Assembly (NCBI RefSeq): GCF_030824435.1
Contig: NZ_JAVBXS010000048.1
Coordinates: forward strand, 1 to 48,051
Direction of reading: 5' to 3'
From: Rheinheimera sp.
GTDB taxonomy: Bacteria > Pseudomonadota > Gammaproteobacteria > Enterobacterales > Alteromonadaceae
DNA: 48,051 bases
Both the position numbers and the translations under genes were made by a program. The notes beneath the pieces are model-generated. The model worked only from the letters and a program-made list of their open reading frames with translations. It was not told the DNA's origin and ran no database searches. Below are positions 47,502 to 48,051 of this stretch, in pieces (position 1 is the stretch's first letter; every line of letters starts with the position of its first letter).

Positions 47502-47536
47502 ATGTTGCATGTTGCATGTTGCATGTTGCATGTTGC
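47502..47536. repeat. 7-bp tandem repeat, five units of ATGTTGC
   Basis: Five perfect units run without interruption. The unit length is not a multiple of three, and no gene overlaps it. Each junction holds the palindromic core TGCA. Confidence 0.95.
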
Positions 47537-47552
47537 ACAAGTAAATATTAAA

Positions 47553-47573
47553 CATTTTATAGGGTGTAAAATG
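47553..47573. repeat. CATTTTA hairpin, copy A
   Basis: CATTTTA and TAAAATG pair around a 7-base loop. A close relative (CATTTTAC / GTAAAATG) stands at 47765-47785 in the same position relative to the next repeat box, which ties both to one repeated unit. Confidence 0.6.
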
Positions 47574-47579
47574 CCCATA

Positions 47580-47675
47580 GGAGCCTTGATGCCCTTCGCA
47601 GAGCTCAGGGCCGTTCAGCTGGAAGGAAGCCAAATTATTGGCTTCCTTCCAGCTTCACTGTACTACTCGCATGGG
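47580..47675 (-). repeat. 5S-tail repeat module A
   Basis: In plus-strand order it holds a 43-base box (47580-47622), a perfect 17-bp hairpin with loop ATTA (47617-47654), and CTTCACTGTACTACTC followed by GCATGGG. The last part matches the 3' portion of the 5S rRNA gene at 48009-48026 in the same orientation. The box is 40/43 identical to that of module B. Confidence 0.75.
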
Positions 47676-47720
47676 AATGCCCTGCTCGGGCAATAGACCA
47701 CCAGAATGCCATAAAGCACT

Positions 47721-47740
47721 AAATCCGCAGGAGCGGATTT
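47721..47740. repeat. Small hairpin between modules A and B
   Basis: AAATCCGC and GCGGATTT form a perfect 8-bp stem with loop AGGA. A second imperfect stem (GGACGGC / GCCGGTCC) follows at once, so the DNA between the modules is almost wholly made of hairpins. Confidence 0.55.
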
Positions 47741-47764
47741 GGACGGCACAGCCGGTCCGCAGGA

Positions 47765-47785
47765 CATTTTACAGGACGTAAAATG
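47765..47785. repeat. CATTTTAC hairpin, copy B
   Basis: A perfect 8-bp stem (CATTTTAC / GTAAAATG) with a 5-base loop. It is the counterpart of the hairpin at 47553. Confidence 0.6.
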
Positions 47786-47786
47786 C

Positions 47787-47816
47787 AAAAAGGCCCAGTC
47801 GTTAGACTGGGCCTTT
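47787..47816 (-). terminator. rRNA-type terminator, copy B
   Basis: A stem AAAGGCCCAGTC / GACTGGGCCTTT with loop GTTA gives T5 on the minus strand. It is related to the 5S terminator at 47957 (GCCCCAGTC there, GGCCCAGTC here) with a matching change on the other arm. Module A lacks this element. Confidence 0.75.
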
Positions 47817-47828
47817 CTGGCTTTATTG

Positions 47829-47924
47829 GGAGCCTTAATGCCCTTCGCAGAGCTCGGGCCGTTCAGCCGGAGGACTGCAAAATTGTTTGCAGTCCTAAAT
47901 CCCGTCTTCACTGTACTACTCTCC
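47829..47924 (-). repeat. 5S-tail repeat module B
   Basis: Same architecture as module A: conserved box (47829-47870), a perfect 11-bp hairpin with loop ATTG (47871-47896), then CTTCACTGTACTACTCTCC. TTTATTGGGAGCCT at its left end also matches the DNA just beyond the true 5S gene. The stem sequence shares nothing with that of module A. Confidence 0.75.
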
Positions 47925-47956
47925 AAGTAATCCACAGCCAGAATCGCAGTAAATAA

Positions 47957-47986
47957 AAAAGCCCCAGTCTTTCGACTGGGGCTTTT
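47957..47986 (-). terminator. rRNA operon terminator
   Basis: A 13-bp stem (AAAAGCCCCAGTC / GACTGGGGCTTTT) with loop TTTC is followed on the minus strand by a T-rich run. It lies about 12 bases after the 5S 3' end. Confidence 0.88.
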
Positions 47987-47998
47987 CCATTTATTGGG

Positions 47999-48051
47999 AG
48001 CCTGGCGGTGTACTACTCTCGCATGGCATCTGCCACACTACCATCGTCGCA
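47999..48051 (-). rRNA. rrf: 5S ribosomal RNA, 3' end only
   Basis: Read on the minus strand, the last ~50 bases contain CGATGGTAGTGTGG, then CATGCGAGAGTAG, then CGCCAGGC. These are helix IV/V and the 3' arm of helix I of bacterial 5S rRNA. The gene runs off the right edge; 23S and 16S should lie further right on the same strand. The exact 3' terminus is set by homology to within two or three bases. Confidence 0.9.

Follow-up and report, generated by a model that had tools for sequence, protein, structure and literature searches.

Results

Two hairpin modules in the tail of a Rheinheimera rRNA operon

The window, a stretch of 48,051 nucleotides, is the entire contig C72 of the Rheinheimera genome G000 and stops within a 5S rRNA gene on the minus strand. 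The following features were assigned downstream of this gene, in the order of its transcription:

47997 to 48051, minus strand: 3' end of the true 5S rRNA gene, truncated by the contig end (sequence reading)
47955 to 47986, minus strand: terminator T1, 3' of 5S, with stem GCCCCAGTC/GACTGGGGC and a T run (reported by the terminator scan on the plus strand only)
47912 to 47919, minus strand: 5S-tail copy A, GTAGTACA (sequence match to 5S)
47861 to 47911, minus strand: first hairpin (H1) of module A, GT-GA-6 bp-5-nt bulge GATTT-11 bp-CAAT loop-GA-AC (alignment, folding)
47840 to 47860, minus strand: second hairpin (H2) of module A, loop GAGCTCTGCGA (alignment, folding)
47829 to 47836, minus strand: AAGGCTCC of module A, the end of the 5S-tail copy
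47787 to 47816, minus strand: terminator T2 (terminator scan)
47716 to 47786, minus strand: short inverted repeats between the modules, CATTTTAC..GTAAAATG, GGACCGGC..GCCGTCC and AAATCCGC..GCGGATTT
47659 to 47666, minus strand: 5S-tail copy B, GTAGTACA (sequence match to 5S)
47613 to 47658, minus strand: H1 of module B, 17 perfect pairs, bulge lost, TAAT loop (alignment, folding)
47591 to 47611, minus strand: H2 of module B (GCCCT/AGGGC), loop GAGCTCTGCGA (alignment, folding)
47580 to 47587, minus strand: AAGGCTCC of module B, the end of the 5S-tail copy

The original prediction of 5S 3'-portion copies downstream of the true gene was confirmed by the recurrence of GTAGTACA at 47912-47919 and 47659-47666, followed each time by a hairpin, a conserved box and AAGGCTCC. 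As GTAGTACA and GGCTCC both belong to the 5S end, the frame around each module corresponds to a split, decayed 5S tail, and module A was found to occupy such a split tail between two intrinsic terminators. The operon end has the order 5S-T1-module-T2-module, the modules probably being lodged in duplicated 5S-tail-plus-terminator units. The last bases of the predicted extent of 47553-48000 (47997-48000) are already inside the true 5S gene. The terminator scan detected no strong terminator immediately after module B, and a weak one of five pairs at 47486-47469. Tandem TGCATGT repeats in about four copies lie just past module B (47506-47537). The inverted-repeat run at 47716-47786 has a related copy, ACATTTTA..TAAAATG, also past module B (47552-47581), and similar blocks were seen in the rRNA tails of contigs C2 and C103 and of genome G019.

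Architecture and fold of the double hairpin

Alignment of further copies revealed a common plan for H1, which consists of GT or GC, GA, six pairs, a five-base bulge on the 5' side, 11 pairs and a tetraloop C/T-A-A/G-T, with the two arms, GA, and AC or GC on the return side; H2 follows with about five pairs around the nearly constant loop GAGCTCTGCGA. H1 of module A comprises the 6 bp, the 5-nt bulge and the 11 bp with a single A.G mismatch. In module B the same 17 pairs run on uninterrupted, the bulge being absent; two sister copies in this genome (C103 at 82; C54) retain it as GAATT. The two stems had originally been described as unrelated (17 bp against 11 bp); instead they belong to one shared architecture, differing in sequence but aligning column by column and covarying. 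That stems might align to each other once more copies were known had been named beforehand as counting against the prediction, and they did so in the sense of this shared architecture; the box, whose absence from other rrn ends would likewise have spoken against it, was found in other rrn ends.

Both modules fold better than dinucleotide shuffles of themselves on the rrn strand, with z-scores of -7.98 (0 of 200 shuffles as good) and -2.82 (3 of 200), compared with -6.77 and -2.48 on the opposite strand. The H2 stems vary around the loop, with GCCCT/AGGGC and ATCCC/GGGAT as well as CACCC/GGGTG with the loop GAAGCTCTGCGA, and in other genera GGTGC/GCGCC, GGGAC/GTCCC and AGGTT/AACCT enclose the same GAGCTCTGCGA, which recurs across families; other H2 loops occur in some dispersed copies. 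At the foot of H1, GA/GA in some copies is represented by GAA/GUA or by ordinary pairs in others.

Covariation and the mode of stem change

Four alignments were used, of which A2 to A4 were fitted to the model; A1 holds the 26 Rheinheimera modules kept of 35 windows passing the sequence filter. In A1, 93.9% of 624 cells paired, whereas sliding the partners by one to three columns left 32-48%; two-sided change was seen in 18 of 24 pairs, and there were 122 two-sided cells compared with a shuffle mean of 39.2. The 51 modules of A3, taken from wider genera, gave 94.8% pairing (34-45% when slid), two-sided change in 21 of 24 pairs and 333 two-sided cells against 98.5 in shuffles, although A3, having been fitted to the model, leans towards the structure. 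The copies are related, and these counts are therefore not independent. The covariation in both alignments bears out the proposal that the fold is kept while the stem sequence changes. Covariation counts as the usual proof that an RNA is functional, and this repeat offers a textbook case of it; the same pattern would, however, be produced by renewal of hairpins at the DNA level.

True 5S stems provided a reference for the way in which the modules change. The comparison was made on helices I, II and IV in a set of 20 distinct genes, of which 14 relatives of the order supplied 16, Rheinheimera three and E. coli one. Over all pairwise comparisons, the ratio of two-sided to one-sided stem differences was 7.62 in A1 and 12.38 in A3 against 1.69 in 5S. 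For comparisons with 30-50% of pairs changed, the ratios were 9.78 (A1) and 14.0 (A3) versus 1.79 (5S), whereas with fewer than 15% of pairs changed they were 1.03 and 1.7 versus 1.77, and the two-sided excess was gone. The predicted active renewal of the stem accordingly gains from the excess over true 5S stems and loses from its absence among near-identical copies. We read the stem pattern as probable exchange or renewal of whole hairpins in which one-sided variants would be short-lived, a reading suggested by the two-sided excess. The arms are also mixed: with nine lower, 13 upper and seven H2 arms, 16 combinations of lower with upper and 18 of upper with H2 were counted, and likely half-swaps with broken pairs were seen in G019 (C6) and G013 (C12 at 556). 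As the mostly two-sided pattern departs sharply from that of 5S stems of the same order, the repeat could be a natural test case for RNA selection versus DNA-level hairpin renewal.

Distribution across genomes

Two models of the element were used, R1 built from eight genomes of the genus and R2 built also from family and order genomes. R1 detected the element in all 22 Rheinheimera genomes (worst best E-value 2.6e-4), eight of which had fed the model. In the family sample 42 of 295 genomes matched, 26 of them outside the genus. With R2, matches were obtained in 20 of 394 genomes of the order sample, 17 outside the genus, with 12 of the 20 unused and eight used in building R2, and in 10 of 369 genomes of the class sample, namely G000 and nine others, none of these nine used in R2. 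The remaining 374 genomes of the order sample gave no R2 match, and the element is not universal. With E 0.001 per genome as the threshold, chance alone should account for about 0.4 genomes in the order sample and as many in the class sample, the E-values being rough owing to a short calibration. The neighbouring genomes found by scan were those of Rheinheimera, Alkalimonas, Arsukibacterium and Gammaproteobacteria MAGs.

The rRNA-tail copies viewed in other genera and families occupy the same slot, 5S-T1-AGTAGG-H1-H2-5S end-T2. Among the 57 searched loci that were classed, 36 were rRNA tails with a visible 5S end (35 from Rheinheimera and L084 from another genus); at least one copy was carried by 25 of them and 11 had no match, and the copies were in the sense orientation in 39 cases and antisense in one (L105). 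In 30 rRNA-tail loci from 14 complete relatives, R2 matched two, L325 (G033) and L317 (G112), the latter weakly and antisense (E 3.5e-4). Many of the draft assemblies are interrupted at their rrn loci. The element is not confined to rRNA operons. In G015, assembled as one contig, copies lie at 111,030, 656,670, 660,070 and 2,242,498, and its six 5S genes are elsewhere.

A search of the window against Rfam 15 gave 0 matches at the gathering score, and in five loci at E-values up to 1 only rRNA and weak unrelated matches were returned; on these searches a described RNA family was rejected. Viral contigs gave no match to one exact pattern and plasmids none to one 161-base query, and carriage by phages or plasmids was rejected on that pattern and that query. 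In the open-licence literature, no paper on the element was found by titles or starts of abstracts among the matches listed.

Insertion context

Two of the searches of loci covered part of them (100 and 81 sources). Terminators were examined around 37 of the 97 distinct elements of A4, namely those in loci before L263 with enough flank, which are mostly dispersed, a few sitting in or near rRNA tails. These copies often lie behind the terminator of a gene: one on the same strand at most 130 nt upstream was present for 16 of the 37 copies, whereas of 343 windows drawn at random from those loci 47 had one (p 4e-5); terminators in other positions were counted for 10 of 37 on the opposite strand and for 4 of 37 downstream on either strand. 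The left flank of the 97 distinct copies has G at -1 in 82 and at -2 in 71. For 95 distinct members of the 104 A4 matches, the left and right flanks paired with each other at -14.79 kcal/mol, compared with -13.14 for shuffled partners (sd 0.37, 20 shuffles). The flanks pair better than shuffled partners, and hence the element tends to lie within a larger hairpin, in its loop. L249 contains two empty units (GTCGGAAATGCAGG-(G)AGCATATTTTCGACG) and, next to them, a filled one that carries the element immediately after AGG.

In the class sample, several copies adjoin tRNA fragments by eye. In G678 (L297:8800-10330), seven tandem units of 145 bp lie upstream of an intact tRNA-Met; by eye, they are located between an apparently rpoD-like ORF and this tRNA gene, each is preceded by a 5' fragment of tRNA-Met, and two inverted units past tRNA-Met carry its 3' end. 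Copies in inverted orientation lie to either side of a tRNA-Arg in L291 and L292. ARAGORN, given 12 loci including seven of the nine class-level ones, predicted a tRNA in six of these seven. The dispersed copies, the copies with tRNA fragments and the empty and filled units of L249 fit the suggestion of a small mobile hairpin element, but its supposed targeting of 5S ends only is not supported, given the copies elsewhere in Rheinheimera genomes. Several Rheinheimera also hold near-identical copies within a longer repeat (L132, L168, L169, L240-L244), with, by eye, more than 100 bases of similar flank.

Discussion

A dispersed palindromic repeat resident in rRNA operon tails

The double-hairpin repeat is real, dispersed and structurally conserved. 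In several families a minority of genomes carry it in their rRNA tails, and it is also scattered through Rheinheimera and some other genera. The copies share one conserved single-strand fold with covarying stems. The repeat is a kind of palindromic repeat whose stems change in an uncommon manner: two-sided differences lie far above those of true 5S, and lower stems, upper stems and H2 occur in mixed combinations.

The explanation we favour, to which we give about an even chance, is that the module is a DNA repeat of ∼85 bases (H1 plus H2) that sits in a duplicated, decayed 5S-tail-terminator unit and has been dispersed and shuffled among rrn operons. The element would be, or would have been, a non-autonomous palindromic repeat that spread via a single-stranded form and settled behind GG where hairpins or stable-RNA genes have loops or junctions. 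Renewal may have affected both arms at once, through template switching during replication or through the swapping of entire hairpins, and the units are probably shuffled by recombination between rrn operons. Template switching is a proposed source of new RNA hairpins and of their repair (PMC8794818); the likeness is that both arms change in one event and imperfect stems are perfected, and the difference is that the process was published for RNA genes, whereas here it would be deduced from the two-sided excess. By analogy with that proposal, the stem of module B could have been perfected in this way. Against renewal, the two-sided excess vanishes among near-identical copies (1.03 and 1.7). Dispersal as a mobile repeat is weakened in that no mobilising enzyme was found among 37 neighbourhoods of Y1 transposase matches in the genus, and in that the 39:1 sense bias and the recurrent H2 loop are also predicted by a role as RNA. 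Recurrence in the rRNA-tail slot of several families suggests a use there, as backup termination or as trailer structure. More tentatively, and with the balance tilted against so full a statement, the copies might represent a family of mobile DNA with two hairpins, so far undescribed, in Gammaproteobacteria. It would work as a single strand, enter behind GG in the loops and junctions of hairpins, of terminators and of stable-RNA genes (5S, tRNA), and renew both stem arms in one event, and it would have been domesticated as a recurrent component of the rRNA operon tails of several families.

A possible structured RNA from the operon trailer

It is possible, though we consider it rather improbable, that the module is primarily a structured RNA made by polymerase reading through T1 and maintained by selection, for backup termination, as a guide for 3' processing or for protein binding, the dispersed copies then being secondary. 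The conservation of the fold in A1 and A3, the position shared by several families between T1 and T2 and the 39 sense copies to one antisense in Rheinheimera rRNA tails would all be expected of such an RNA, as would the GA/GA or GAA/GUA internal loops, the near-constant H2 loop and the better folding of the rrn strand than of its complement. G-U pairs also outnumber A-C 36 to 16 in A4 (p 0.008). If the strand acted as single-stranded DNA, an identical bias would result, and such DNA can likewise contain GA pairs. When the strand comparison was made on A2, in which 120 matches were collapsed to 93 distinct stem sets, all helices together had 53 G-U versus 36 A-C, but the H2 stems in rRNA tails had 9 G-U versus 14 A-C, partly through misalignment. 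The G-U excess suggests that one strand matters, either as RNA or as single-stranded DNA, between which this sequence bias would not separate. A selected trailer RNA is further disfavoured by the true 5S stems of the order, in which one-sided change is far commoner, by the lack of a match in 11 of 36 rRNA-tail loci and in 28 of 30 from the 14 complete relatives, and by two antisense copies in rRNA tails, one of them clear and the other weak.

Comparison with REP elements and their transposases

Mobilisation as a GTAG-type REP by a RAYT (Y1 transposase) is very unlikely. The copies share with REPs and REPINs of the GTAG and CGTC super-families, as described in PMC3733652 and PMC6006769, the dispersal of many intergenic palindromes mostly 3' of genes, the bulged hairpin and some inverted pairs, here placed around tRNA genes, and a Y1 match was present in 19 of 22 genomes of the genus. 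They depart from those REPs and REPINs in consisting of two dissimilar hairpins in fixed order with GG rather than GTAG at the foot, in being found repeatedly near fragments of stable-RNA genes, and in that no cognate RAYT was found. GT[AG]G occurred within 0-2 nt 5' of the hairpin foot in only 4 of 97 distinct A4 elements, and the GTAG seen by eye at the foot in several non-Rheinheimera rRNA tails is the GTAGG of 5S itself. The 37 Y1 matches of the genus included none flanked by the repeat as a cognate RAYT would be (30 loci with 0 copies, the other seven with one), and the copy-rich genomes G003, G010 and G019 had no Y1 match at all. A RAYT/REP origin was rejected on the foot tag and on these neighbourhoods, 36 of 37 of which lacked a copy.

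In the exception, L338 (G006 C5), a short hairpin stretch and the end of a Y1 gene are found a short way upstream of the copy, and as the intervening sequence equals that of the uninterrupted rRNA tails L100, L102 and L106, an IS200-type element most likely inserted at T1. An apparent insertion-sequence end also interrupts the 5S-tail side of the module in L075 (G007 C36). Miniature elements of the IS200/IS605 type have a fixed left target and a precise empty site, and make no duplication. Set against this pattern, the repeat has the GG left flank and, within L249, both empty and filled units, and it lacks a transposase link. As a lead only, a Y1 subclass without recognisable REPs is common in Chromatiales and Alteromonadales, according to PMC6006769.

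Origin of the 5S-tail frame

That the locus is nothing but a decayed second 5S gene and terminator, whose hairpins are accidental or derive from former terminators, is extremely improbable for the hairpins in view of their covariation, their fixed architecture and the copies far from rrn, and was rejected for them; it still accounts for the surrounding 5S-tail frame. Tandem 5S genes and 5S-tail-terminator repeats do occur in relatives: by eye, whole 5S genes in tandem with terminators between them were seen in G028, G034 and G043, and tandem truncated 5S-tail-terminator repeats without a hairpin insert in G040 (L305, L320). Likenesses to group II introns, attC sites and the hammerhead were weighed on general grounds and dropped.

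The tail of E. coli rrnB (and likewise of rrnA and rrnD) resembles the present one in having 5S-T1, a second 5S tail split by hairpins (GAGTAGGAC..CTGCCAGGCATCAAAT) and then T2. Its hairpins differ from ours, and the model found no match there with filters off (the best at the slot having an E-value of about 1), and identity of the element with the E. coli T1-T2 hairpins was rejected for want of a model match. In E. coli MG1655, the layout was absent from the stretches viewed after rrnC, rrnE, rrnG and rrnH. The rtT repeats of the E. coli tyrT operon are tandem units each with the end of a stable-RNA gene (tRNA-Tyr); they are set apart by description, carrying that tRNA end and, to our knowledge, no such double hairpin. 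From the tandem 5S forms of relatives and the E. coli layout, the simplest history would be a duplication of the 5S tail plus terminator, after which the slot was filled by one hairpin set or another. The present repeat also suggests that the T1-T2 hairpins of rrn operons, as in E. coli, occupy a slot open to colonisation by different palindromic repeats. A hairpin set like that of E. coli rrnB T1-T2 was seen by eye in the slot of G026 and G027 (L306, L312, L326), and a similar one after T1 in G014 (L103), possibly constituting a second conserved family of modules.
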